The notes under the pieces were generated by a model that saw only the letters and a list, made by a program, of their open reading frames with translations, made no database searches and was not told the DNA's origin. Both the position numbers and the translations under genes were made by a program. Positions 3,703 through 63,302 of a stretch of 64,000 nt of DNA are shown in pieces (the first letter of the stretch is position 1; every line of letters begins with the position of its first letter). The DNA is taken from NCBI GenBank assembly GCA_903813345.2, contig CAIIXF020000012.1, forward strand, positions 33,988,572 to 34,052,571, given 5' to 3'. This DNA comes from Owenia fusiformis. Its lineage: Eukaryota > Annelida > Polychaeta > Sabellida > Oweniidae.

Positions 3703-3837
3703 GATAAAAATACAGATCGCTGCCATGTGATCAGTTCTAACTCAAATAATCCTTACTAAAAAATTTATTTCAGTGATAAAATTCAATGTACAAATGAGCA
3801 AATTCTGAGGTTATTTATGTATCGGTAGAGCATCGAT

Positions 3838-4500
3838 GTACTCGAAGATGCTTATATCACGAAGATGGCCGAAGATGTTTATATCATGAAGATGGCCAAA
3901 GATGCTTATATCACGAAGATGGCCGAGGATGTTCATATCACGAAGATGGCCGAAAATGCTTATATCACGAAGATGGCCGAAGATGTTTATATCACGAAGA
4001 TGGCCGAAGATGTTTATATCACAAAGATGGCCGAAGATGCTTATATCACGAAGATGGCCGAAGATGCTTATATCACGAAGATGGCCGAAGATGCTTATAT
4101 CACGAAGATGGCCGAAGATGCTTATATCACGATGATGGCCGAAGATGTTTATATCACGAAGATGGCCAAAGATGCTTATATCACGAAGATGGCCGAAGAT
4201 GTCTATATCACGAAGATGGCCAAAAATACTTATATCACGAAGATGGCCGAAGATGTTTATGTCACGAAAATGGCCGAGGATGTTAATATCACGAAGATGG
4301 CCGAAGAGGTTTATATCACGAAGATGGCCAAAAATGCTTATATCACGAAGATGGCCGAAGATGTTTATGTCACGAAAATGGCCGAGGATGTTCATATCAC
4401 GAAGATGGCCGAAAATGCTTATATCACGAAGATGGCCGAAGATGTTTATATCACGAAGATGGCCGAAGATTTTGTTATCACGAAAATAGCCTAAGATTCT
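3838..4500. repeat. 27-bp minisatellite open in several frames
   Basis: About 24 tandem copies of a 27-base unit (ATGGCCGAAGATG, then CTTATATCACGAAG). Because 27 is a multiple of three and the unit lacks stops in several frames, open frames of 209 codons (+) and 233 codons (-) arise, each encoding a 9-residue repeat such as KMAEDAYIT. I see no flanking splice signals, signal peptide or non-repeat coding sequence, so I call it a minisatellite. Point variants (AAAGATG, CGAGGATG, GTCACGAAAATG) recur in the same order at two places, which indicates duplication of multi-unit blocks. Confidence 0.9.
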
Positions 4501-5590
4501 CCAAGGAACCAATCAAATTCTTTGAAAGGGTAGGGCTTGATATTCGGCCATCTTCGGTCGTAGCCAAAAATCGTCACCCTTTACGTTTCAACACTTTCTT
4601 CTTATATTGCTGTTCATTCCGCCTTTTGCAGTTTAATTTCATAAGGCCGGTTGGTGCCTTAGTAAATATTAATTGTAATGAAGTGAATGATTTGATGGGG
4701 GACCTATCAGTCCCATATCAGTAATTGATTTATGTCATAATATTTGCCTTTATCGAGTTCTACTTTAACGAGGCAATATTTATGTGATAACGGAAATATG
4801 GGAAAACTTACCACAGAATTGCATCAAAACCTTCGCTGCGTTTCTTTAGTTAACTTCACTTGACTTGTGGTTCTAAAATTTGCTTTCTGATTTAAATTCA
4901 TTAAATTTTAAAGGCCCCATATAAAGTTTAAACAACTTTAGGTTTTTTAAAGCTAGTGAATGACTTTTCCAAGAATAAACATGGTATGGGGCAAGAAGAA
5001 ATAAATCTCAGTTGGCCGTGATAACAAATGAAATAATATCCATGCAAAACAATTAATTAGTAATACAGTTATCATCCAAGAAAGTAAGATAAATATTCCG
5101 GGAGATTATTCGGGGTCAAAGCAGTGAAGTAAATCAAGTTTAGGATGAAGTAATGAATTGGATTACGTGATCTCGAAGATAACAGTCTCGCGTCTCCCCG
5201 TCCCCTGTGTATGTTTTGCAATGAATTGTAAAGCAACGATTTGAATATACATGTTCTGCATAACTGAACTCCCAATGGTATTGATACTATTCCCGGAATT
5301 GATATTTATGCATTTTGTAATTTGTGCAAAATATTTCCCATTTTGTTTTATAACAACAGGTTGATATAATTTACAATTTTCCTCAGTCCCTCGGCGTGTT
5401 CTTCTATATAAATCCTAATCAGTGAAATATCTATAGAAGCTCAGAACATTTTGACATAATGATTATGTCGACTCAAGATTTAAGAGATTTTGCATACTGA
5501 CAACCTGTTGACAATGGTTGCACGGGAACACACAAAAGGTTTTTGAAAAACAAAAGCAATCAAATAAATCATTCTTAAAACTTCTTGTAA
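4501..5590. other. Intergenic, no feature seen
   Basis: AT-rich sequence without recognised exons or repeats. A short ATTCGGCCATCTTCGG near 4541 echoes the neighbouring minisatellite unit. Confidence 0.5.
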
Positions 5591-42574: not shown

Positions 42575-43630
42575 TTAATTGATCCAGAACTTTTTAAATT
42601 CTTCTGGTAACGTTTTATTGTTTTCCGTGCAACAGGTCTCGTATCCAAATAATTTTGCCATATCTTTATTGGAATTCATCACCAATGCTTTTCTGCCATC
42701 GCCGAAATAATCCTCACAATTGGAATGTGTGCTTGGATTCTCATTCACCTTTATCTTATGAAATTTCTCCCATTTTACTTTTCCCCCTTGTTCTTCATAT
42801 CGTTTCAAGCAATTCACCAAGTCGTAAATTAACATTTCGGTGTGAATCCAACAGTCCGCATTGCCCAAAGTTGGGTCTGTTTTCCATATGTTATTGTTGA
42901 AATACTTGTGAACAAGTCTATTTGTATATATCTTTTTATTGTCTTGAAGCCACATAGTGAATCTCTGTAGGTCATCTTTGTTATTATACGGAGGCGTATT
43001 CCCATACACACTTTCATCCTTTGTCGAATGGCAAAGCGCGCCTTTTCCGTCCGAGCCAAATGCCCATAATGACAGTAGATAATTACACGGTGAACGTACA
43101 TGCGCAATGACGAAAAAATTTGATTTTTGATATGGCTCCAGTGATACAAATTCTGTTTGAAGAAAGTAGTTATCCTCAAGAATTGTACTGTTATTTTTGT
43201 ACATTCCCCTGTTTTGGTCGACATTTATACTCTCTCCAACTACTGTTGTTAATATATGCCTTATTTCCGACCCACCTGCTTTTGGGAAATGACTGAATAA
43301 CAGTGACTTCTTGCGACTTTTCCGTGCATCGCCCGATGTTAGTAACGGCATGGCTAACTCATTTAAGGGCGTTATCATTTGTTCCCCATCTTCGTTCACA
43401 ATATGGCTAAACTTATCCTTTTGTTTGGAGAACTTAAACCTGATATTTGTCTCTCTTATATGCTGATAGCCTTTGGAATTAATGATGAAACAATACACCG
43501 ATAATACAAGCATTATCGATGCAACCGCTACATTTAACTTCCGCATGATTTCCGTATTGTGAGTAGGCCTAAGACTCTTAATGGTTACTGTATTATTACA
43601 CCCTATACGTAGAGATTGCATCAATTTCAA
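42575..43630 (-). CDS. Golgi-type sulfotransferase, type II membrane protein
   Basis: One uninterrupted frame of 351 codons. It should transfer sulfate from PAPS to a sugar or glycolipid in the Golgi lumen. A single hydrophobic span (about residues 34-50, VAVASIMLVLSVYCFII) near the N-terminus marks a type II protein. The PAPS 5'-phosphosulfate loop is SHFPKAGGSEIRHIL (about 113-127) and the 3'-phosphate motif is VIAHVRSPCNYLLSLW (about 174-189, Arg and Ser kept). Met29 (codon at 43546-43544) gives the short tail MRKLNVA usual for such enzymes and may be the true start. The length suits the galactosylceramide/carbohydrate sulfotransferase group, but the acceptor cannot be predicted. No introns were needed, so the gene may be naturally single-exon or a retrocopy. 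Confidence 0.8.
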   Translation of the reverse strand: MKLMQSLRIGCNNTVTIKSLRPTHNTEIMRKLNVAVASIMLVLSVYCFIINSKGYQHIRETNIRFKFSKQKDKFSHIVNEDGEQMITPLNELAMPLLTSGDARKSRKKSLLFSHFPKAGGSEIRHILTTVVGESINVDQNRGMYKNNSTILEDNYFLQTEFVSLEPYQKSNFFVIAHVRSPCNYLLSLWAFGSDGKGALCHSTKDESVYGNTPPYNNKDDLQRFTMWLQDNKKIYTNRLVHKYFNNNIWKTDPTLGNADCWIHTEMLIYDLVNCLKRYEEQGGKVKWEKFHKIKVNENPSTHSNCEDYFGDGRKALVMNSNKDMAKLFGYETCCTENNKTLPEEFKKFWIN

Positions 43631-43920
43631 TGAACGCCACGACGACTAAAAACCAAAAAAGAATAGTACCACAATTTTTCAAGTCGTATTTCTGGAGCAC
43701 ACGGTGGTGATTATATCAGATTCTATGCTGTTTTAGAAGTTGAAGATATTACATTAGGCATGCCATGTGTTTTTAATACGATCGAACGCAAATAATGATA
43801 AAACAGTCGTTAAAATATACAGTGCAATTTTAATTCACCACAATAAATTATGATCTGATATTGTCAAAATTTCGATAATTCCTGATCGACAACGCATGGA
43901 TGTCCATGGACATGTTTTAT

Positions 43921-48972: not shown

Positions 48973-49148
48973 CTAGGTGCAGGCTGGTAAAAGTGTTGAA
49001 CCTCTGCATGGAACAGTTTTTGTTTCCATGGCTTTGCCATATTTACATCGATTTATCTTTCTCACTCCAACCTTTACTCCAATGGCATTTGCACATGTTG
49101 TGCTGCATGACCCATATGTCCAGCGTGTCCATGTAGACCATACACAGT
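48973..49148 (-). CDS. Thrombospondin type-1 exon and stop codon
   Basis: Encodes DCVWSTWTRWTYGSCSTTC, then a basic stretch with RKINRCKYG and TVPCRGSTLLPACT, followed by TAG. The WxxWxxW, CSxTC and C-terminal cysteines identify a thrombospondin type-1 repeat; the usual arginines that stack between the tryptophans are only partly present. It enters in phase 1 after MAM2 and ends the protein. Confidence 0.85.
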
Positions 49149-52100
49149 CTAAAAGAGACAATCCATTTTGCATTAGGCCAAGTTAATTGTGTTCAAGATG
49201 CCAAGTTAGAAAACACCGTCTTTCAAGATTTGTAATACAATTTTGATAACTTCAGATGGAGCTCTTTATGTCAAAGGTTTTATTTGTGTGTCTTTCTTAC
49301 CTTTATGTCAAAGGCTTTATTTGTGTGTCTTTCTTACCTTCGTGTCCTCCACCATTCGACTCCACAAGAGTCACTTTGACGTCATCAATAGCAAAGTCTG
49401 ATGAGTACGAAACCCCGTTAAGGATTACTTGAAAGCGCACTGAGCTAGTTCCTCTAGGTAATAATTCAATGACTTCCATCCACTCGTCCCTACTTTCATC
49501 GGTTCGGCCTGGACAATCAAGAAACGTGGAATATAGATCTCATACAAATTTTATGACAAACATTTGATGGTTTTAACCCTAATGTCTACTGGGTTCAATC
49601 CGTCCCCCCCCCTCTCGATTTTTTCAAGAGTACTTCTTGCAATTTTTGCGCCTCTTTCTTTTGGCACAAAAAAATTATTGTGAAAGAAAACTGACTACTT
49701 ATCACAAAATTTCAAAAATGTACAGCCCCTAGGTCACATTGACCTCGATTTGACCTATGTTGACCTAGTTTTTAAAAACAAAACTTTTCGAAGAGGTTAT
49801 TGACAATACAAACAATAATGAAACCAGACAAATAATAAAAAATATCGCAGAGGGGGGGGGGGGCGACTTAGTGTATAAAAAGTTGCAGACATAAGGGTAA
49901 ATGCACTCAAATTAACATCAAGAATAGCATCTTTAGATTATTGCTTATGTTACTCACTGTCGAACACCACTCACTAACTTTTCAAATAACACCACTCACT
50001 AACTTTTCAAATAACACCACTCACTAACTTATCAAATAACACCACTCACTAACTTTTCAAATAATACCCTAACAAAAAGTCATTAATTCTCGGGTCGGAA
50101 GGTATCGGATCGGGTCACAAACAACTACTTACCAATTTCGGGTCATGTCAAAACAATAGGGAATATCATAAGTTATCGTAAAATTTATTATGTTTCCCGC
50201 AAACTTTTGGCTTGTCTATTTCTTGATTACGTATAAATTACGAAAGGGAAATAGTTTACGGTTCTTCCCGAATGATTAAATGCTTAGTATCCATCATTTC
50301 CCTTTATTAAATTATAATATGCAGGCTTAAACAGCAAGTCAAAAAAAATTTTCTTCTGACTTGACACGGAATGACAGACCCGACCAAAAAAATATCCGAT
50401 ATGTGACACTCCTATAAAACATTTTCAAAATGGTTACTCACTAGTCTAATTGTCATCAGACAATGTAATATGCTTCTAAGTAGGCACATATAAAATTTCA
50501 ACAAAATCGCACACGCATACATGTAAATGGTGGCCATTTTTTCAAAATGGCCGACCACTCCCCAAAGTGGTTTCGCGGTTATCTTAAAAAATGTAAAAAA
50601 GTGTCATTAGACAGTGTACCATGCTTATAGTATTCACATACCGGATATGAACAAAATCGCTCCACTACTTTTCGAGTTACAGCAAAAATCGTAAAATAGC
50701 CATTTCTCAAGATGGCTGCCATGTGCTTCTTACATTATTAATGTCCTATATAATTTTTCACGTATAAAACATATTGCTATTACAGTTTAACATATTGCAC
50801 CTAAAATACTGTAAAATAGGCGCTAAAATGGCCGCCATTTTGAAACGAGCGGTCCTTTTGAAAATTGGCTTTCGAACAGAACTTCTACCCCCCATAGGGC
50901 ATATGTGTACGAAATATGAACAAAATCTGGCCAATGTTATTCGAGTTAACCCAGACAGACGGACGGGGGCATTCCCTATATGCATCAGACCTTCGTTCGA
51001 TTGGATAATTATTTCTGTAAACATTACATTTAAATGTAAGTTATGATGTATGAGTATTTTACTCAAATACTATATGCAAAATGTTTGTAAATTATGTATT
51101 TTAAATCTGTAAAAGAATGTGAGCAATCATTTGAGCAATAACACTGTTACTTCTTTCTCCACGTCATGGATGTCCCTCAATATGTGACATTCTATACATT
51201 ATACGGTCAAGTACATGGTCAAGGATGTTAATGGGTTGTTCATGAGTTTATCAGTTTCGTTGGTTTATATGTAGTTTTCCTCAGTGGCTTCTTATTCGGT
51301 ATTCAATAATGTGGTTAAAACACACACCAATGTGATTATTATATTGCCTTATGTTTTATAAGAACCGTACAATTATCTACAATTATTGAAAATTATTTAC
51401 CATCAAAAATAAAGATTTGGGCGTTGGACGGTTGTGCAGTAACCTTGAGTATCCCTAGTTGTTGTCCAAAGGCATGATAATAGAAGATCAGTGTCTTTTC
51501 ACCGCCGATGGAAAACCTTGGAGTATCTATCGTTGCATTGCCTTGACCCTCTAGCAGGGCTAGGGTGTTATTAGTTGATGCCTCGACAAACATGAATGTA
51601 TCTGCGTATGTGTTAGAACATATTTAATCATTAGATTGTAATCTACATGTATAGACCATGGTATGAAATTCCCAGGACGCCTGATTAAGGAGCTGGTAAC
51701 GCAATATAGTGCGGCGATATTTGACCTGATATTTACATACCAACACATGTCCAGTATTGTTTTCTTATTATATAAGTTTAATATGCTTCGAGCTGTTTGG
51801 CTGAATTATGTGTTAATTTGATGCTGTTTTTCTTTACAAAAAATTACGTAATCAGCAAAACAACATTTAGAATATTTTTTTCAATACTGGTGATGTAAAT
51901 GGTAACGATGATCGTTTTTATATAAGAATGAAATATGCTAAAATTATTGTAATTTTTCGAAAATGGGTCTTAATGCGTTTTGAGATATGGACTGCAACCG
52001 TCAGGGGTCAACTATCAATAAAGGGGGCATATTGTTCTTCATTGTTTAACTGTGGCTTCGGCTAAAATTATTTTGCCCCCAGCTGGATATTACTCAGTTG

Positions 52101-55100
52101 TCTATAAAACAACCACCAAGACCTGGTCAAATTTATGAAAATGGTTTTGATTTTCACCAAAAATCTACTGATAACCAGCAGTTATGTCTAAGAATATATT
52201 ACCATCAGAAAATCTGATGATATGCAGCAGTAACGTCGTGAGAGAAATGTAAGGCGTTTGATTGCATATGACTCCAGGCGATGATAGGTATAAATTCTTT
52301 GAAAAAATTTTGAAATAATAAAACTTATATATTTGAAATTATGATTTTTTGAAAATAATTTACACAATCTGCTTGACCAATATTTGAAAAATGTACATTT
52401 ATACAATTACACCAATTTACTACTAGAAATTACATAGAAATTAGAATTAGGTTTGACACAATGATTTATTTATTTCCAATTTATTGTAAATATGCTTACT
52501 TCAACGTTTTGCGTCTTATAAAATACGTAAAAATTCGAATGAAAGTATTTACGTTTTAGACCCCTTGTAATGAGAGGAATATTTCGACCCAAATTTTTTT
52601 CAGCAAACGGCATTTTAATAGAATCAAGACATATGGATCTCCTAAAATATTGGTTCAAATGTTGCTGCACTATATTGTGTTACGGATTCTTCATATTCCG
52701 GAGTCATACCATGGACTACTTTATGAAGTTTTAGCTGTTATATTTTAGTAGACGTAAAAGATTACCCGCCGAGTATACGATTCATAGAAACTTTTTCAGC
52801 AAACGGCATTTCAATAGAATCAAGACATACGGATCTCCTTAAATATTGGATCAAATGTTGCTGCACTATATTGTGTTACAGATTCTTCATATTCCGGAGT
52901 CATACCATGGACTATGAAGTTTTAGCTGTTATATTTTAGTAGACATATACTATTACCCGCCAAGTATACAATTCATAGAAACTTGTGTTTTGGTTATATT
53001 GTTCATGTGTTTAAATATATTTCTCGCAGCCTTGAATATGAAACCTCTGGTCAAGGTAAGGATTAAAATGTGGATTGGATCGAGTGGTTTGGACTCATGT
53101 AAAAGGTGGTTTGAATTGGGATTCTGCAAAATATGGGATTTCCATAGTTTAAAGCTTGAATTAAATATTATGCTGAACAGATCGTGCATATAAGTAAATT
53201 CATTCTTATGTTTCTTGTGTGAAAGAGTGTAAAATACATGAATATATTGCATCAATAACTGAGATATTAAGAAAGTTTGTCAAGGCATCACTTTAATACG
53301 AAAATATCCATGATTTATTCAAAAGTAAACAATAAATACACCATTTCATACAAGTTTTTCACAAAGTACATACTTTATCTACAAAGGAAATCATAATATT
53401 GTAATAATTGAAAAGAATATACCAAAACTAAATGGTAACATTATTGAGTCACTCGGGTGTATCAACTTCGTTCTGATGCATTCATCTGATGCTGATTATC
53501 TAAAAGTAAACTGAAAATATAATTTCTCAGTATTCCAGTAATCAATATTTTCAAGTTATTTTAGAGGAATATCAATGGAAAAAAAAATATATATATATTT
53601 TGAAGATTCCCGATCCAATCCACCTTTTACATGACTCCAATCCACTCGATGCAATCCATCTTTTAATACTTACCCTGGCCAAATATGAGGTTTCTTGAAT
53701 GTCCCTCTGTCTGTCCTCTATTATTTGCCAATTTGACGTCAGAATTATTTTAATTTGGATAATTCAGAGAACGTTGGCTTAGGGTCCAAAAACGGGAGTT
53801 TAAAAATCACAAAATTATTGATCCGATTTGCGTATGTGTAATTGATCTTTGACAAAAAACAACAAATTCCATTGCTAAATTGTTAAACAAGATCAGTTAC
53901 CTTATCAAATAATCCCAGTTATACTCACCACCACTGTGACCCCCACTTTGAGGCCCTGTCGTAGAAGATGGTGTTGTACCACTATCGCTCCTTTCCCAAT
54001 CTCTTTGGTCGTCGTGCCGTTGTACGAACCCACAGAGGTTTATAGCATCAAAGTTGCAATTTACCAATGTTCTTTCTACAGATGATAATTGACATAATGC
54101 AAATGAGTACTTAAACACACTGAATCACTGGATTTTAAAGTAATATAATTTATAAGTCTTCACATCGTACACCTCTCCCCTTAATAGAAATATTTTGTTT
54201 TAAGCTAGCTTACAAAAGTCATTTACATTATATACAGTGTGTCACAAAAAAAGAAAACCAGCAATAGATTGCTTATTTCTCAAATATAAATAATAATAGG
54301 AACATTTCACAGCTACCATCCTGATAGGTTATGATGTCCTTTTTCTTATGATACCAAAGGCGTTTATTTTTTCACGGACGACTGAGTTCTAAGAGATTTA
54401 AGTGACCATGTCAGAAATTGGTTTGTGCCAAATTTTCTGTCATGAATGGCTGAACAATGAGGGATTAAAATGGCTATGCAAGACCATGTCCTATTCGAAA
54501 TACACATTTCTGAACAAGCATTCAACATAGCAAGTTCATACAGCTGACCCAAGATCAAAGAGTATAGTAAGTGGGAGCCTTCAGCAGGTTGCTGATCAGT
54601 TTAGAGTACGCTTCCCAGATAGAAATGTACCTGCTAAGTCGACAATCTGGAAGAATATCAAGAAGTATCAGAGAGAAGGAACGAGTCTCAATCTCAACAA
54701 GGGACGTTCTGGAAGAAGAAGAACAGCTCGGTCTGATGAACACATCAGGATTGTCCAAGACCAGCTCGAAAGGAACCCCCACATCTCTACCAGAAGAAAT
54801 GGTGTAGGAATTCCACACACTTCGTTTAACAGAACAGACATTAGATGGTACCCATATTAACCTCAAAGGCATCACCAACTTCTTGATGCAGATCTACCAA
54901 GACGACTTCAGTTTTGCCGTTGGCTGATCGTTCAAAATTGCTTGTTTTTGGATAACTTGGTCATCGGGGATGAAGCCTCCTTTTTTATGAATGGGAGAGT
55001 CAACACCCAAAATGTCAGAGAGTATGCACCACTGCATGAACCACCAGCCTTCAACTATGATGTTAACATGAGTAGAGAGAAGATCTCCCTTTGGATCGGG

Positions 55101-58100
55101 CTTTGTGGAAATGGGACACTCATCGGACCATGTTTCTTCAATGGCAACCTAAACGGAGAAGATTTCCTAAGAATGATCAACGATGAAATTGTAACAGAGC
55201 TGCAGGAGCACAACAGCAATGGGGTGGTGTATTCAGAAGACTGTGGTGGGCCCAGGACGGTGCTCCTCCTCATTGTCGGATTATCGTTCGGGACAGATTA
55301 AGGGCGCTGTTCAACGAAAGAGTGATTGCCTTGAACCACGAGATTGAGTGGCCACTGAGATCCCCAGACCTGACACCCTGCGACTTCTTCCTTTGGGGTT
55401 ATCTCAAGGGTAAAGTCTTCACAACACCACCAAGAGACGTTGATGATCTAAGGGCCAGGATTGTCGCAGCAGTGGAGGATCTAAGGGGACAGAGAGACAT
55501 CATCAGGGATGCAGTACGTGCGATGAGATCAAGGGCAGACATTTGCATTGAAAGGAATGGGGGTCATATTGAATCAATATATTGAATGGACATTGGGATT
55601 TAAAAGGGGTGTTAAATATGATATGTTTAATTTTAATTGGAATAAATGAGTAAATGAGTGATATCCTGATGTTTGTTGTTACTTATCACTTTGTTATGAT
55701 GATGAAATTGACTTGGCTGAAGGTGGTACAAACTCATTTCTGACATGGTCACTTAAATCCCTTATAACTCAGTCATCCGTGAAGGAAAATAGACAACTTT
55801 GGTATCATAAGAAAAAGGACATCATAATGTATCAGATGGTAGCTGTATAATGCTGTAACCTGTATAATAGATAAATTATTACAACAAGTCATATTTAAAC
55901 AGTGACATCGCCTCTTTAGTCTTCTATGTACATTAGATGATAAAATGGTAGTTTAAACTGTTCTACAATGAATTGTAAAATACCAAGACCAAAAAAACAG
56001 ACAGTCTCTTGACTCATTTTGAACCTTGAATCATTGTGAGAGTTAAAATCTGTTTTTTCTTACCTTTATCTTCACCGCCTCTATCATCGTTACTGGTCAC
56101 CTTTACATCATCAATCGCAAAGTCTGAAGAGTAACGTTTTAGACCTGCCGAAAGTTTCACTTTAAATAATACTGATGTCGTACCGCTGGGTAATTGTTCT
56201 GTTACTTCAGTCCAGTCGGAGATACTTTGGTCTACTTTACCTTTATAGAATCAAACGAAAATTCATGAAGTATTTAAATTTACATGTTATCACCAAAGGG
56301 CATGATGATGTCAATAGAAAGACATTTGTTTGAGATAGACATTATCAATCTTTTGATTGCCGTTTTCATAAAAATAAGATGGCAAAGAGTCCAAAATAGT
56401 CTCAAAAATTACGTGTAATGGCTACAGACAAATCATTTGTGGATCTAATTACCAAGAAACCATACCCTGCGTGCAGAGTCTAGTTAAACTACGAAGCTCT
56501 CTTTTAAGAAGTGAAGTCAAACGAATGCAAAGGGTAAAGAAACCAAGAATTTAAACAGGCGAGACAGAGACCACGTCATTTCTTTACCATGAAATATGAA
56601 TACTTGGCTGCCAGATGGCTGGGCTGTAACAGTGAAGATTCCCATATTTTCACCCATGGCATGGTAAAGGAAGCGCAGAGTTTTTGTTCCGCTACTATAA
56701 AACTTCGGAGTCTCTATCACTGCCGTGGCATTATCTGGAGCTGGATTCGAAGCTTCCACATAGACGAACGTATCTACAGGTATATTTAAATGACTTTGAT
56801 GTAACATTATTTCAATGTTGCATACACGCATGTAGAGATAGATTCAATATATCCTCTGGGCCAAAATACTGTTCTATGATCAATATATCGTTGTTTTAAT
56901 TGTGTTTAACCTCTTGAATCCCAGGCTCTAAAATCGGTTGAAACCAGAGAATTTTTCATTTTTGCAACCTTTTGAGATTTTCTATCTATTCAACTTTAGA
57001 TGCTCAACCTAGTACAATGAGATGGCAGAGATCATTTCTACACATTTCAAAAAACAATTTTAGGTAAATTTGATGAAAATTGTTCAAATAAGAGCAATTT
57101 TAGTGAAAAGTTTTAAGACAGATTTTCTCGTCAATCTGGGTTTCAAGGTCATTTCTGAGATGACGAGAAATTCGTCACACATGGAAGTCAAGAGGTTAAT
57201 CAAAAATCGATTTCGATCAAGATATTGATTATAATATTTTAGCAAAATATTGAATTGTCCCCTATGTATCTACTTATAACAAGTTAAACATCTTCATCGA
57301 AATACTCATACTCACTTCCACTATTACCCCCATATAAGGGACCAGTTCCAATAGATGGTGTTTTGCCATCCGTGTTCCTTACCCAATCAATGTCGTCGTT
57401 TGAATATTGGAAGAACCCACACAAATCACTAGCAAAATTGCAGTCTAGCAATGTTGTCTCTGAAACCAATCAGAGTGTAAACACAAAAAGTTAAAAATTT
57501 AGACCGGTGGCAAGATATCGCACTGAAAGATGCATTATACCATAGGTTTCTCGGCCAGACAATCAATGATGTCCCTTTGTTATTGCTTATACAATATCTC
57601 ACAAACTATGGATATATCTTATGGGTATAGTATTGCCGAAATATTGAAATAATCAACACTCTACTATATCTAACCCCTAGAAATGCATAAGATATTCTGT
57701 TTGTCTAATTGTATCGTTAAGTATATTTTTGCAAGTACCTTATTAACATCTATCAGTCTTCTGCTCATTAACACTAAATGGTATACTTAGGTGGTTCAAA
57801 AAGTTTTTCAGTTGATGCCATAACTTCAAGGAAAATAGGACTTTTGCAATGAAACTTGGTACACATATCTGTTATATATATTTACACATTATATGGTAAA
57901 ATTTGGGACCTCAATTTTGATTGGTTCTTGAGATATGGTTGCTATGGTAACCAGAGTGGTGGGTACCATGTTCAACCCGAAATTACGTTTTTCCAAATAG
58001 TTTTTTTTAGTTTATTTTGTAAGATTTATAAAGTTCACTTTAACTTTTCCAACTTTTGAATTTGGTGGCAAGAATAGTTTGCAGAATAGTTTGAAGGTCC

Positions 58101-61100
58101 TGCAGATCCTATAGCTCCTTTTGGGATTTTGCCCCATGAAGTCCGTGGGACTCCATGGGACTCCGTGGGATTTTGCCCCATCTTGCCCCACGAGGTCCCA
58201 TGAGGTCCCATGAAGTCCCACGTGGGACTCGGTGGGACTCGATGGGGCAAGATGGGGCAAAATCCCACGGAGTCCCATGGGGTCCCATCGAGAATGAACA
58301 TGTTCATTCTTTCCATGGGGTATCGTGGGATTTTCGATCATATGACGTGTTGTGTGAAGCCCAACATACACCAATGGGGCACGGTGGGATTTGATGGGAC
58401 TCCATGGGGCTTGATGGGACTCCATAGGGCACGATGGGGCAAAGTCATCAAGGTCCCATGGGACTTCGTGGGATTCGATGGGGCAAATTGGGACTCGATG
58501 GGGCAAGTGGGATTTTGCCCCATTGGTGTATACCGGGCTTTAGTAGCCAATTAGAATACCGGAATTTAGGGGTTTGGTCAGCAGAGGCTATCATGAACAA
58601 CATGGAGGATTAGGTTGAATATTTGTGCGGCTAAATTGTCTAAAATGGTGGACTAAAAGTCCAGTTAGGATAGCTATTTTAGGATATATATCTACATGAA
58701 GGTAGCAAGAATGTTATGTTTAGGTAAGAGTATCTTGATGTGAAGGATATTTTCAGTTTCAGCAGCTTAGTTTAACATGTGATTTTCTCGCTAGATAGAT
58801 TTTAAAGATCAATCTGTCACTTCAATTTCTGTTTCTGTGACATGTAAACACCACTTTTTGAGCATTATTTTAGGATCTGTATAGCATCTCAATTTAATAA
58901 CCTGTGAAATATATGGGTTATGATTTGTATTTGAAGTGCAACAGGCATTGTTACTTTTGAGCCTGATTTGAACATAGTTGAAGATAGATGGCATACCAGA
59001 TTGTTATGATTTTGTAAGGTCAGTTAGTACATGTAGCAGATATATGTAGGCCCAGAGAATAAGTATAGTGAGATTGAAAACTGCATAATTGTTATTCAAG
59101 GTAGTGTCTTGTTTGTGTAAGGAAAGATGTACATGTACTTTTAACTAGATATTTGAAGATAGGTGGCAGAGTATTCTGTTGTTGCTATTTGTAAGGCATT
59201 CACATGTAGAGAGTGTTTGCATATATATAAGGTCAAGTTGGTGCATCGTTAATAAGATTGACAACTGTTTTTGAAGTTATTACAGTATCTTATTTGAGAC
59301 AACATGTCTGATACAATTCTGTAGACCTTATTGTAAATATTCATCATTGTACATATTTCATATTATTTTAGTAGTTATAATACAGTTACATAATATATAT
59401 ATAATCAAATCATATTCTTTTGTGCTATCATGTATGGTGTAGGACAATTTGATAATCAGTAAGATTAAAATTCATAACAACCAACACACTTCCTAGTCTA
59501 GGACATACGATACCATAGTATTTTTAACACCTTGTATTTTTATTACGTCACGGCTAGGCGAGTGTGACCCCGGTTCTTACAATTTCAATTAGGTGATAAG
59601 AAATTACTGAAAAATATTGTGGGGATTTCGGAAAAAGTGTGAACATCTGGCGTTTGGTTAATCCCGTCATTACCGGAAGTGGTGATGTTCCTTGTGTGTG
59701 AACTCCGCGGAATCTTAATCAAAGGAGCAATCTCGGGTTAAAACTTAACCATAACTTGAGGAAACCTCCCGTAGTATCAGGCGATCTTGATCATCCCGTT
59801 CAGTACACACTCCAGTGTGGAGCTGAGAGAGCTGGGAATTGAGGAGATCTTCTGAGGCAGAGTTTCCCCAAGAGTGGCAGAGACCTCTTAGTGTGGAGCT
59901 GAGAGAGCCGGGAATTGAGGAGATATTCTGAGGCAGAGTTTCCCCGAGAGTGGCAGAGACATCATGGAGTGGAGACAGTCCTCATAGAGACATAGAGAAG
60001 AATGTGGAGACAGTTTTCCTGGAAAGAGAACCGGAGAGACGATAGCCGGAGTGGAAACGTATCCCGGAGTTGAAGAATCCTCCTGGCGCTGGGGAGAGGC
60101 ATTCCAGAGTTGGAGAATTCGTCATGGAAAGGTAGAGAGAAGAGCGAGCTGAAAGATCAGAAGTAGAAGTAGTAGAAACAGAGAGAAAAAAGAGACACGC
60201 TACCACAGTTAGAGATATGAGGAGAGAGAGAGTTACACTACAACATTTAGAGACCATTAAAAATAATTCAAATACATTTTTATAGTTCAAGATGTGTCAT
60301 TTACTGTAATTTATCTGTAGTTCAATATATGTGCTAAACTGAACCAATGATGTCACATGTAAAATAATTTAAATGCTAATTTCTATATCGGTGGGAGTTC
60401 AGACTCAACTACCTTGGCTAGATGCCAAAAACATGTTACAAACAAATTCCGAAAATATACGATTTTTATAGTGCTACGAGTACTAAGCAATATCATATGT
60501 GCAAATGGAATTCAAACGTTTTTATAAATTTCACAATTTGTTACAAATGCTTTCAAGTATGTTGAGTTAGCAATTGATTTATTATTTCAAAACATAGCTG
60601 CATATCATATTTTAAAAAGAGTTTGTAAAGCCATTGTGTCGTAACTGGGGAATCCAGGACCTCGGCAATGTTGTAGTCTAGAGGGCGTAACGAGCTATTT
60701 AAGAAACCATAAATATAAATCTCACAAATCAAAACACTTTAGAATTACTAAGAAAAAACATCCCGCTTTTGGAAAATTGGGTGTTATCGTCAGTTTTCTA
60801 GACATACACAAAGAAATGTTGTTACAGTTACGCGGTCACCCATTGATTATTTTATATGTACCTTGTGTAATTAACTATAATATTAAGGTATAATTGAATT
60901 GAATTGAAAATGCTATATATTTATGGTATTTGCGATACGGGAGAATATGCCATACTAACCTTACTGCCATACTAAATATGGCATAAACCGCAGGTGAGTA
61001 TGGTATATTCCACAAGTGAATATGCGATACAATGAATTCACCATTATTTTTTCTAATTGAAACCTTTAATACTGACGTGGCTTTACTCATTCCGTTTTTA

Positions 61101-63302
61101 AAGCAAAGCAGGTTCGATTTTCAAAAATGATTTAAGAATATTTTAAAAGAAATCTCTACACAGTATTATAAGTTATTGAATGATTTGAAGTGCAATACAG
61201 GATATATTCTGCTCGAAAAATTCTATATTGGAACGAGACGAAATTTATCTGAAAGATAGGAAAGACGGCCAAATTGTGTTGTTTAAACAATCAAATGATA
61301 TTCATTGTTAAAATTATTTTACCCGTTGATAGCGAGAAAGTGTTCAACAAATATAATTTAAAAAAAGATTTGTCAGTTGCGAATTTTTTTAAAGAAAATC
61401 TCAAACTCTCCCGATGGTCTAAACATTTTCAAGGAATATGTTTACGTGACGCTATACGTTTCTAAAGATTTACAATATATCCCATGGGCAGAATTCCTTT
61501 GAAACAAAATAATTATTTATCAAAATTAGAATTGAAATAAAAAATAAACACTTGCTTACACACTCAATAACTTTCATGTACTTACATCGATTGACCTGAT
61601 TATAATCAAAATAAGTCAATAATTACAAATGGCCATATTATTTTTTTAGTGGTAACGTGTATAGTAATAGATGGGGAACCTAGAGATTATACAAACCGCT
61701 TGAACCATCATCTCCTTTTTGACCTTTTGGTCCTGTTAGGCCAATTGCTCCCCTTTCACCCGGTTGTCCTTTTACTCCTGGGGGACCAATTGCACCCTTT
61801 TCACCTGGTCTGCCGTTTGATCCACTTACTCCCGATGGGCCAATTGCACCCTTTTCACCTGGTCTGCCGTTTGATCCACTCACTCCCGATGGGCCAATTG
61901 CACCCTTTTCACCTGGTCTGCCGTTTGATCCACTCACTCCCGGTGGGCCAATTGCACCCTTATCACCCGGTCTGCCGTTTGATCCAATTACTCCCGGTGG
62001 GCCAATTGCACCCTTTTCACCTGGTCTGCCGTTCGATCCATTTACTCCTGGTGGGCCAATTGCACCCTTTTCCCCTGGTCTGCCGTTTGATCCACTTACT
62101 CCCGGTGGGCCAATTGCACCCTTTTCACCTGGTCTGCCGTTCGATCCATTTACTCCTGGTGGGCCAATTGCACCCTTTTCCCCTGGTCTGCCGTTTGATC
62201 CACTTACTCCCGGTGGGCCAATTGCACCCTTTTCACCTTGTCTGCCGTTCGATCCATTTACTCCCGGTGGGCCAATTGCACCATTTTCCCCTGGTTTGCC
62301 GTTTGATCCACTTACTCCCGGTGGACCAATTGCACCCTTTTCACCTGGTCTGCCGTTCGATCCATCTACTCCCGTTGGGCCAATTGCACCCTTTTCACCT
62401 GGTCTGCCGTTCGATCCATTTACTCCAGGTGGGCCAATTGCACCATTTTCCCCTGGTCTGCCGTTTGATCCACTTACTCCCGGTGGGCCAATTGCACCCT
62501 TTTCACCTGGTCTGCCGATCGATCCATTTATTCCCGGTGGGCCAATTGCACCCTTTTCACCTGGTCTGCCGATCGATCCATTTATTCCCGGTGGGCCAAT
62601 TGAACCCTTTTCACCTGGATTCCCATTTGATCCATTTACTCCAGAGGAACCAATTGCTCCCTTTTCACCAGGTCTGCCAATCGATCCATTCACTCCAGGT
62701 GGACCAATTTCTCCATTTTCACCTGGTCTTCCAATTGCTCCTTTTTCACCTGGTCTGCCGTTCGATCCGTTTACTCCTGGGGGACCAATTTCTCCATTTT
62801 CACCTGGTCTCCCTATCGATCCATTTATTCCAGGGGAACCAATTTCTCCCTTTTCTCCAGCCGGACCAGGCAATCCTTGACTTCCTTTAAGACCGGGTGG
62901 ACCAGCTTCCCCTCGACTACCATTAAACCCTTGAGCACCGGTTGGTCCCTTTGGTCCTCTTTGTCCCCTGTATCCTCGCACTCCACGTTTTCCTTGTGGT
63001 CCAACTTTTCCTTCACAATTTTTAGTACATGTCTCCTCCAAGCTATGAATATCGGCTTGAGATTTGATGACAAGCTTTTGTAAGGCTGTTATTTCTTCAG
63101 CTTGTTCATTCAGTTTATTTTGCAGTTGAGCCATTTTCTCTTCGAGTTGGTCGACTGAGGTGGAAAGTCGGTCATCATTATCTGACAGTTGTTTACAATC
63201 ACAAGGGGTGCTGGTGACTGTATCAGATTCAGCACAAAACAAATCCAAGCTGATAACTAGTGTCAGAATAAAACAAATGCCCCGTGAATTACAGGAATTC
63301 AT
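48973..63302 (-). CDS. Secreted collagen-MAM-MAM-TSP1 matrix protein (8 exons, joined model)
   Basis: Exons on the minus strand: 63302-61697, 57459-57316, 56773-56588, 56240-56064, 54075-53929, 51601-51401, 49508-49338, 49148-48973. All seven introns are phase 1 and GT-AG, giving 935 residues and a TAG stop. Order: signal peptide, coiled coil, collagen triple helix, MAM1, MAM2, thrombospondin type-1. A secreted trimeric matrix or adhesion protein is the likely role. Joining the collagen exon to the MAM exons is inference: same strand, no other gene between, a donor at 61697/61696 (GCG|gtttgt) that leaves phase 1, and a MAM exon that needs phase 1. The alternative is two genes, a collagen-only protein that reads on to LYNL and a stop, and a MAM-TSP1 gene with an undetected 5' end. 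A possible ATTAAA (minus) lies about 50 bases past the stop. Confidence 0.7.
49267..49340 (-). repeat. 37-bp tandem duplication over a 5' splice site
   Basis: Two direct copies of TATGTCAAAGGYTTTATTTG followed by TGTGTCTTTCTTACCTT, at 49267-49303 and 49304-49340. Read on the minus strand each contains AAG|GTAAGAAAG, so two equal donors stand 37 bases apart. Use of the distal one would add 37 bases, with an in-frame TAA, before the TSP1 exon. Each copy also contains AATAAA on the minus strand. Confidence 0.92.
49338..54075 (-). CDS. MAM domain 2 (three exons)
   Basis: Exons 54075-53929, 51601-51401 and 49508-49338 repeat the exon plan of MAM1: VNCNFDAINLCGFVQRHDD, TPSSTTGPQSGGHSG, TFMFVEASTNNT, GEKTLIFYYHAFG, LGILKVTAQPS and YSSDFAIDDVKVT. 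Domains 1 and 2 are clearly tandem duplicates. The 5' splice site of the third exon is itself duplicated (see 49267-49340). Confidence 0.9.
49964..50066. repeat. 25-bp tandem repeat, four units
   Basis: Unit CACCACTCACTAACTTTTCA followed by AATAA, spaced exactly 25 bases, inside the last MAM2 intron. Confidence 0.93.
50420..51000. repeat. ATGGCCGCCATTTT-type dispersed repeat
   Basis: Three spaced variants of AAATGGCCGCCATTTT (about 50528, 50695, 50826), each followed by sequence resembling ATGAACAAAATCGCTCC, and a closing CAGACAGACGGACGGG. The layout suggests a repeat built from three diverged sub-units of about 150 bases. The open frames on both strands (about 100 codons) are chance. Confidence 0.55.
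52599..52982. repeat. Tandem duplication of about 190 bp in a MAM2 intron
   Basis: CAGCAAACGGCATTTTAATA begins copy 1 and recurs at 52798 with CAGCAAACGGCATTTCAATA. The copies agree closely up to the AATTCATAGAAACTT end; copy 2 lacks five bases of ACTACTTTATG. Confidence 0.92.
54231..55855 (+). mobile_element. Mariner/IS630-type transposon, inactivated
   Basis: Left tip TACAGTGTGTCACAAAAAAA. The arms share ACAGCTACCATC, ATGATGTCCTTTTTCTTATG and TTTAAGTGACCATGTCAGAA in inverted orientation (54310-54425 and 55745-55850). The right tip is missing. The plus strand encodes a transposase: a helix-turn-helix part at 54560-54830 (STIWKNIKKYQREG, NKGRSGRRRTAR), then GDEASFFMNGRVNTQNV, GLCGNGTLIGPCFFNG, WWAQDGAPPHCRIIV and RSPDLTPCDFFLWGYLKGKV, so all three catalytic Asp blocks are still readable. 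Frame breaks lie at about 54830-54890 and about 55225-55245 (before the WWAQDGAPPH block). It sits in the intron between MAM1 and MAM2. Confidence 0.9.
56064..57459 (-). CDS. MAM domain 1 (three exons)
   Basis: Exons 57459-57316, 56773-56588 and 56240-56064. Landmarks: LDCNFASDLCGFFQYSNDDI then DWVR, TPSIGTGPLYGG, TFVYVEASNPAPDNA, FYSSGTKTLRFLYHAMG, MGIFTVTAQPSG and, at the end, YSSDFAIDDVKVT. This is the full MAM fold, an extracellular adhesion module. Phase-1 introns at both borders allow exon shuffling. Confidence 0.9.
57470..58109. other. First intron of the joined matrix gene, no feature seen
   Basis: AT-rich sequence; no additional exon recognised. Confidence 0.4.
58110..58545. repeat. 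GTCCCA-word element B with ACATGTTCATTC core
   Basis: Composed of words such as GGGACTC, GTCCCAT, TGGGGCA and TTTTGCCCCAT on both strands. Anchors: GAATGAACATGTTCATTCTT (58291), TCGATCATATGACG (58334), ATACACCAATGGGGCA (58367) and its echo CCCCATTGGTGTATAC (58518). The anchors match element A at 5590-6000 in reverse order and orientation. Open frames of up to 164 codons arise from the words and are not genes. Confidence 0.75.
58546..59815. other. Intronic or intergenic, no gene seen
   Basis: No exon recognised. The stretch from about 59540 (TATTACGTCACGGCTAGGCG) onward changes to a GC-richer, purine-rich composition. Confidence 0.4.
59816..60260. repeat. 76-bp direct duplication and purine-rich tract
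   Basis: AGTGTGGAGCTGAGAGAGC and about 57 following bases (ending GTGGCAGAGAC) occur twice, at 59816-59891 and 59892-59966. The next 300 bases are rich in GAGA, GGAGAC and AGAGAG on the plus strand. Looks like a worn repeat or a transcribed non-coding region; nothing in it reads as protein. Confidence 0.75.
60261..61679. other. No feature seen
   Basis: AT-rich sequence downstream of the collagen exon. No exon that I can support. Confidence 0.4.
61680..63302 (-). CDS. Collagen exon: signal peptide, coiled coil, 54-bp Gly-X-Y modules
   Basis: Starts MNSCNSRGICFILTLVISLD, a signal peptide ending near FCAES. Residues about 40-92 form a heptad-rich coiled coil (LEEKMAQLQNKLNEQAEEI), likely a trimerisation seed, closed by CTKNC. 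From residue 98 to about 535 the pattern Gly-X-Y is unbroken, about 146 triplets. Most of it is an 18-residue unit, GPPGVNGSNGRPGEKGAI, encoded by 54-base tandem repeats. GEKG and GERG motifs are frequent, and about eleven NGS sequons sit inside the helix. If the donor at 61697 is not used, translation runs five codons more to a TAG at 61680. Confidence 0.9.
   Translation of the reverse strand: MNSCNSRGICFILTLVISLDLFCAESDTVTSTPCDCKQLSDNDDRLSTSVDQLEEKMAQLQNKLNEQAEEITALQKLVIKSQADIHSLEETCTKNCEGKVGPQGKRGVRGYRGQRGPKGPTGAQGFNGSRGEAGPPGLKGSQGLPGPAGEKGEIGSPGINGSIGRPGENGEIGPPGVNGSNGRPGEKGAIGRPGENGEIGPPGVNGSIGRPGEKGAIGSSGVNGSNGNPGEKGSIGPPGINGSIGRPGEKGAIGPPGINGSIGRPGEKGAIGPPGVSGSNGRPGENGAIGPPGVNGSNGRPGEKGAIGPTGVDGSNGRPGEKGAIGPPGVSGSNGKPGENGAIGPPGVNGSNGRQGEKGAIGPPGVSGSNGRPGEKGAIGPPGVNGSNGRPGEKGAIGPPGVSGSNGRPGEKGAIGPPGVNGSNGRPGEKGAIGPPGVIGSNGRPGDKGAIGPPGVSGSNGRPGEKGAIGPSGVSGSNGRPGEKGAIGPSGVSGSNGRPGEKGAIGPPGVKGQPGERGAIGLTGPKGQKGDDGSSGLYNL

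Follow-up and report, generated by a model that had tools for sequence, protein, structure and literature searches.

A predicted Owenia fusiformis gene with two MAM domains between the collagen rod and the TSP1-like exon of a paralogous family

Results

Eight phase-1 exons predict a protein with coil, collagen, MAM and TSP1-like domains

Here, we describe a gene model from the annelid Owenia fusiformis, located in a stretch of 64,000 nucleotides (nt) that we refer to as the window (GenBank assembly GCA_903813345.2, contig CAIIXF020000012.1, positions 33,988,572 to 34,052,571 of the forward strand). A preliminary description, made from the sequence of the window alone, had proposed that exons on one strand code for a signal peptide, a coiled coil, about 146 Gly-X-Y triplets, two MAM domains and a TSP1 repeat, with phase-1 junctions throughout. 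After rebuilding the model from the window, we found that eight minus-strand exons, running from 63302 down to 48973, join into an open frame of 935 residues (Table 1). The seven introns are all of the GT-AG type and the seven junctions are all in phase 1, in agreement with the proposed exon order. From the N- to the C-terminus, the predicted protein has a signal-like start, which was called by eye from its hydrophobic sequence, a coiled coil, a collagen rod, MAM1, MAM2 and a TSP1-like domain.

Table 1. Exons of the predicted gene and its 4.2-kb intron, in positions of the window.
Feature	Position	Strand	Basis
Exon 1: signal-like start, coiled coil, Gly-X-Y run; phase-1 end	61697..63302	-	rebuilt model, Pfam, coil alignment
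Phase-1 intron, 4.2 kb, collagen to MAM1	57460..61696	-	splice-site and open reading frame scan
MAM1 exon a	57316..57459	-	rebuilt model, Pfam
MAM1 exon b	56588..56773	-	rebuilt model, Pfam
MAM1 exon c	56064..56240	-	rebuilt model, Pfam
MAM2 exon a	53929..54075	-	rebuilt model, Pfam
MAM2 exon b	51401..51601	-	rebuilt model, Pfam
MAM2 exon c	49338..49508	-	rebuilt model, Pfam
Last exon: TSP1-like domain and stop codon	48973..49148	-	rebuilt model, paralog comparison, paralog profile

Up to the donor of exon 1, the Gly-X-Y run comprises 146 triplets with no interruption and reaches 244.4 bits with the Pfam collagen family, bearing out the proposed length; by the counting used across the paralogous loci below, the window has 147. 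The rod is coded largely by a tandem repeat of 54 bp (18 residues) in 18 copies at 61760-62729. Pro occupies the Y place in 38 of the 146 triplets, and the rod has 11 N-glycosylation sequons and one GQPGER motif; motifs of the form GxxGER are able to bind integrins. The protein does not qualify as a fibrillar collagen, as no C-terminal fibrillar propeptide is present in its Pfam result. The cysteines flanking the coil are numbers 34, 36, 92 and 96, and C92 and C96 are invariant across 16 aligned coil rows, in which the coil exon has this C..C ahead of the first Gly-X-Y. Pfam matches on the coil, among them the coiled-coil match Fib_alpha, are all under the cut-offs.

Both MAM domains are well above the Pfam cut-off of 26.4 bits (MAM1, 61.2; MAM2, 59.2), as expected from the preliminary description. 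Each is coded by three exons with phase 1 at both ends and has two cysteines only, and the two are 54% identical. Among the matches listed, their nearest kin outside the locus is the first MAM of a gene at C7:13605788-13610509 (C1, C4, C7, C9, C10, C12, C364 and the like are contig coordinates within the same genome), which is 59% identical to both. In the stretch read, this multi-MAM gene comprises three MAM units, of which, as judged by eye, at least the first shares the layout of three exons with phase-1 borders; it differs from the window gene in that no Gly-X-Y run of six or more is present in the 12.3 kb read and no TSP1 is found there among the 93 genome matches listed. A tree of nine rows, three of which are long, groups MAM1 and MAM2 of the window with C7_A, C7_B and a third copy of the locus described below (98/97), the branching order inside the group being unresolved.

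Two further observations concern MAM loci. At C10:26411950-26431350, two MAM matches are followed on the same strand by collagen matches, possibly a gene with the reverse order of MAM then collagen. The intron separating MAM1 from MAM2 contains, at 54303-55852, plus-strand open reading frames (ORFs) flanked by inverted ends (arms of 18, 50 and 60 nt, 89-90% complementary), a structure that we take to be a Mariner/Tc1-like element; two of its ORFs were tried and gave no Pfam match at E 0.01.

The last exon has a W..W..W pattern and six cysteines. Here, the claim of a TSP1 repeat fared differently by method: the exon alone does not reach Pfam TSP1 (TSP1_spondin 14 bits, cut-off 41), whereas a profile of nine paralogous TSP1 exons, from which the window row was excluded, finds it with 46.3 bits and E 5.8e-13, the runner-up among 2887 window ORFs being at E 0.21. 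In the paralog set, again with the window row not included, Pfam TSP_1 is matched by eight of ten rows with an E of no more than 0.1 (the lowest being 4.1e-06).

Coil, collagen and TSP1-like exons form a paralogous family in the same genome

Each end of the window gene, coil and TSP1, was used separately to search its own genome. The window coil gave 23 matches and a paralog coil 25, and the paralog coil recovers the window coil at E 4.0e-8. The 23 coil loci considered here are counted from the paralog-coil search, leaving out C4:23159461 (a piece of the exon at C4:23159560) and C10:34728949, which is partial; C2:19813153, which was found only with the window coil (E 8.3e-4), is uncounted. All 20 coil loci that were read contain a Gly-X-Y run, its length ranging from 15 to 147 triplets, the loci outside this set being C10:4699491, C4:23159560 and C10:34730909, the last with a stop within the match. 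The TSP1 search yielded 93 listed matches, from the best 150 of 284 candidates. With these, 18 of the 23 coil loci have a TSP1-like exon downstream on the same strand within 15 kb, compared with none downstream on the opposite strand, five upstream on the same strand and none upstream on the opposite strand. When positions were drawn at random on the contigs of these loci, 2000 trials averaged 0.23 pairings and never exceeded 2; this control breaks up clusters, and it is the upstream matches that gauge what clustering alone yields. When pairing was restricted to the best 41 TSP1 matches, the counts were 18 (downstream, same strand), 0 (downstream, opposite strand) and 4 (upstream, same strand), with a random mean of 0.19.

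Viewed from the other end, a family coil lies no more than 15 kb upstream of each of the 16 best TSP1 matches; coil C10:34753936 serves two of these. Outside the C12:34 Mb locus, eight of ten TSP1-part matches pair with a family coil; of the remaining two, C10:34745313 lies within the C10 family cluster and C9:13039253 is an exception. In 15 loci, coil and TSP1 are 0.6-5.0 kb apart; one locus reaches 11.3 kb, and for the window gene and its copy the distance is ~13.9 kb. Coil C10:34753936 is followed by TSP1 exons at C10:34745316 and C10:34748926, i.e. by a second TSP1 in the gene or by the exon of a gene whose coil was missed. Separately, the TSP1 exons of C12:4935817-4937207 and C364:12683-14381 are identical in translation, and the small contig C364 is possibly an unplaced copy or haplotype.

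Collagen-end donors were sought in 18 loci (the 20 read minus the window gene and its copy) and picked in 14; those left unpicked are L033 (only GTACCA, in phase 1), L034 (no site close to where the collagen ends), L037 (frame disrupted) and L043 (tail the same as L038). The 14 picked donors are all in phase 1, and unspliced reading past them meets a stop after 14-179 nt. Because the donors were sought by pattern, the occurrence of GTAAGT or GTGAGT in 14 of 14 is partly by construction, while phase and place were unselected; L035, L046 and L047 each have another, weaker phase-1 site that was not chosen. Homology of the window donor with C4:21237945 (L034) was considered but is unsupported, as the local alignment (score 28; at most 24 for shuffled sequences) ends short of the donor. 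At the other end, 12 of 12 family TSP1 exons read are open in phase 1 as judged by eye (11 end at a stop and L045 reaches the end of the stretch read), and the last exon of the window gene is entered in the same phase. For the other family loci, the matches listed (best 150 of 276 candidates) include no MAM between collagen and TSP1; this listing omitted the window's own MAM exons, and divergent MAMs could escape it. In the window gene, TSP1 does not directly follow the collagen but is preceded by two MAM units, making it a variant of the family. Thus, the pairing and the paralog donors indicate that the core gene is coil-collagen-TSP1 and that the two MAM units lie in its phase-1 intron.

Two further copies of the locus

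A nearly identical second copy of the window gene (copy 1) lies 70.5 kb away at C12:34108006-34122303 (L012, L014, L016, L032). In a comparison of eight overlapping locus pairs that excludes window 58960-61392, the main block is 99.87-100% identical in five, which are MAM stretches with introns, the TSP1-end blocks are 96.7-99.7% identical and the largest collagen-end block is 97.5% identical. The collagen run of copy 2 has 132 triplets versus 147 in the window by the same count. Over the first 570 nt of copy 1, the ratio of nonsynonymous to synonymous substitution rates (dN/dS) between the two is 0.62, from the weak data of 9 changes. Copy 2 may reflect gene conversion, recent duplication or an assembly artefact. 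A third, partial copy at C12:34081629-34086153 (L017, L020, L028, L057) has MAM2-like and TSP1 exons, i.e. four open exons with no indel that are 92.5-97.7% identical to the window, in a region whose aligned blocks, exons included, are 81-94% identical. In MAM2 exon c of copy 3, the first 9 nt are unaligned, and the four-exon comparison does not cover the acceptor there. The 10 kb read upstream of copy 3 contain no Gly-X-Y run.

The collagen-to-MAM1 junction and the case for a single gene

The preliminary description had flagged the 4.2-kb intron as the uncertain link. This link is now supported independently, because the paralogs show coil-TSP1 pairing in 18 of 23 loci and phase-1 donors at the collagen end; the gene's own donor is weak. 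That donor and several other observations weigh against the single-gene reading. At 61697, where the exon ends in GCG and the intron starts with GTTTGT, the donor scores 0.6, whereas the 20 donors on which the scoring is based, six of them from the window gene itself, range from 6.4 to 14.3. A phase-1 site at 61585 scores higher still than the stronger sites considered below, but sits beyond an in-frame stop. The stretch from collagen to TSP1 is ~12.5 kb in the window and at most 11.3 kb in the 16 other paired loci outside the locus. Five of the 23 coil loci (C9:6514949, C1:34722644, C7:12494450, C4:23117476 and C4:21237945) are without a TSP1 among the matches listed; only for C4:21237945 was a long downstream stretch (10 kb) read, and this locus, whose coil is among the two most similar (44%), has neither TSP1 nor MAM in it. 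Finally, dN/dS between copies 1 and 3 is 0.81 (38 changes, weak data), which leaves strong purifying selection unsupported.

As for the site itself, 88.6% of the GT sites on the minus strand of the window score lower than donor 61697, which, though weak, appears from its sequence to fit the family pattern in phase and place. The higher-scoring sites nearby in the collagen repeat, 61829 and 61883, are both in phase 0; joining 61829 to the MAM exon breaks the frame and gives an immediate stop, and 61883 was rejected as the collagen end on account of its phase. Further phase-1 GT sites near the collagen end are at 61858, 61804, 61723 and 61759. The exact collagen end is uncertain among several phase-1 sites, while the phase itself is settled. 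We also rejected a hidden extra exon coding for a known domain in the 4.2-kb intron, as no Pfam match at E 0.01 was obtained with four of its 26 minus-strand ORFs of at least 40 residues (58015-58539, 59985-60296, 60878-61120 and 59748-59981; the other 22 include the third longest). Within the same intron, 58015-58550 consists of short repeats with units of ~10 and ~20 bp that are open on both strands.

An in-frame TAG (the "LYNL" stop, near 61680) lies in the intron 14 nt past donor 61697, and the exons could accordingly be divided between two genes, i.e. a short collagen ending at this stop and, apart from it, a MAM-MAM-TSP1 gene that would begin with an unseen first exon. The weak donor would fit this division, as would copy 3 with its MAM-TSP1 exons and no upstream Gly-X-Y run in the stretch read. 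However, the 14 paralogs examined likewise meet an intronic stop just after their phase-1 donor; because a stop soon past the collagen is usual in the family, the LYNL stop is no evidence of a gene end. Moreover, the recurrent pairing of coil loci with a downstream TSP1-like exon places both ends of the window gene in one family, and we regard two genes as improbable. The weak donor, the dN/dS value against copy 3 and the absence of a collagen run from the stretch read at copy 3 could also be taken as signs of a decaying duplicate, in which a locus marked by copies 2 and 3 is losing function; yet, copy 1 keeps its eight exons open and copy 3 its four, and decay seems quite improbable to us. 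Thus, the exons very probably belong to a single gene, a coil-collagen-TSP1 family member with two MAM units inserted in its collagen-TSP1 phase-1 intron, whose transcript would be spliced across the 4.2-kb intron.

Other features of the window

Plus-strand ORFs at 16653-36787 resemble exons of receptor-type guanylate cyclases from one or more genes; their ANF receptor and cyclase matches are above the Pfam cut-off and a kinase match is below it. A minus-strand ORF of 356 residues at 42578-43645 reaches no Pfam family above cut-off, and its FPKAGGSEIR stretch is, we assume, reminiscent of Golgi sulfotransferases. At 3798-4721, tandem repeats (FGHLRDINI / ITKMAEDVY) are open in several frames on both strands.

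Discussion

The preliminary description had read the phase-1 borders as a signature of exon shuffling. Of this reading, a single phase-1 gene of the secreted matrix or adhesion type is well supported; by contrast, the domain order is that of a host architecture to which MAMs were probably added rather than an assembly of loose modules. The plain reading of the sequence comparison is that the MAM units were inserted in the window gene; their loss in the relatives is possible but would be less simple. We think it rather likely that the locus represents a traceable case of exon shuffling, in which the recipient family and the kin of the donor module (the C7 gene) both survive in the genome, the insertion can be reconstructed stepwise and a new pair of binding heads was gained.

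The layout suggests how such a protein could work. In this model, the predicted protein would be secreted, the coil together with cysteines 34, 36, 92 and 96 would align three chains into a trimer, and the 146 triplets would form a rod. The MAM-MAM-TSP1 heads at the C-terminus, three per molecule, might then bind partners in the matrix or on the cell surface. From this layout, a linker in the extracellular matrix or in adhesion is the most likely function, an assignment that we favor by a little. Ficolins, collectins and C1q have a collagen stalk with C-terminal heads, which are fibrinogen-like, C-type lectin or C1q domains, respectively. Without altering the gene model, the window protein might thus be a soluble pattern-recognition protein in the style of ficolins and collectins, with an immune rather than a structural role. 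The analogy in coil, collagen stalk and C-terminal heads and the large, partly clustered paralog family with its varied stalk length would be in line with such a role. However, neither a fibrinogen-like head nor a C-type lectin or C1q domain is present in the Pfam result of the window protein, and we consider pattern recognition unlikely, if less so than the alternatives to the gene model.

Exon shuffling by phase-1 modules is textbook knowledge, but the cases from which it is usually inferred are old and blurred. Here, the parts are ordinary, and what is unusual is that the host family and the module kin are both visible in one genome: alongside a host family free of the insert there are close relatives of the MAM module that share its exon layout. 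If the proposed history is true, this case shows a matrix protein family gaining new heads. If it is not, the locus is an example of gene prediction creating false domain combinations, for which a warning has been published for lancelets (PMC4967905).

Among the titles and abstract beginnings of the literature searched, we found no description of the order collagen-MAM-MAM-TSP1. The thrombospondin superfamily has TSP1 repeats in common with the window gene and the ConA-like domain of mega-TSP is noted to share its fold with MAM proteins (PMC6526912). Thrombospondins proper differ from the window protein in their type 3 repeats and lectin-like C-terminus, neither of which is in its Pfam result. 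The MAM domains of MDGA1, an SR-C-like scavenger receptor and enteropeptidase, for which structures have been solved, are sequence relatives of the window MAMs (E 2.5e-10 to 9.6e-08). In these three proteins, the MAMs are joined to other partner domains. Finally, the paralogs at C12:17130977, C10:34792665 and C9:7521067 are unlike the window gene in having no MAM between collagen and TSP1 among the matches listed, but are like it in the signal-like start, the paired-Cys coil, the collagen exon and the TSP1-like exon that is entered in phase 1 and runs to a stop, to which C12:17130977 and C10:34792665 add a clear phase-1 donor.

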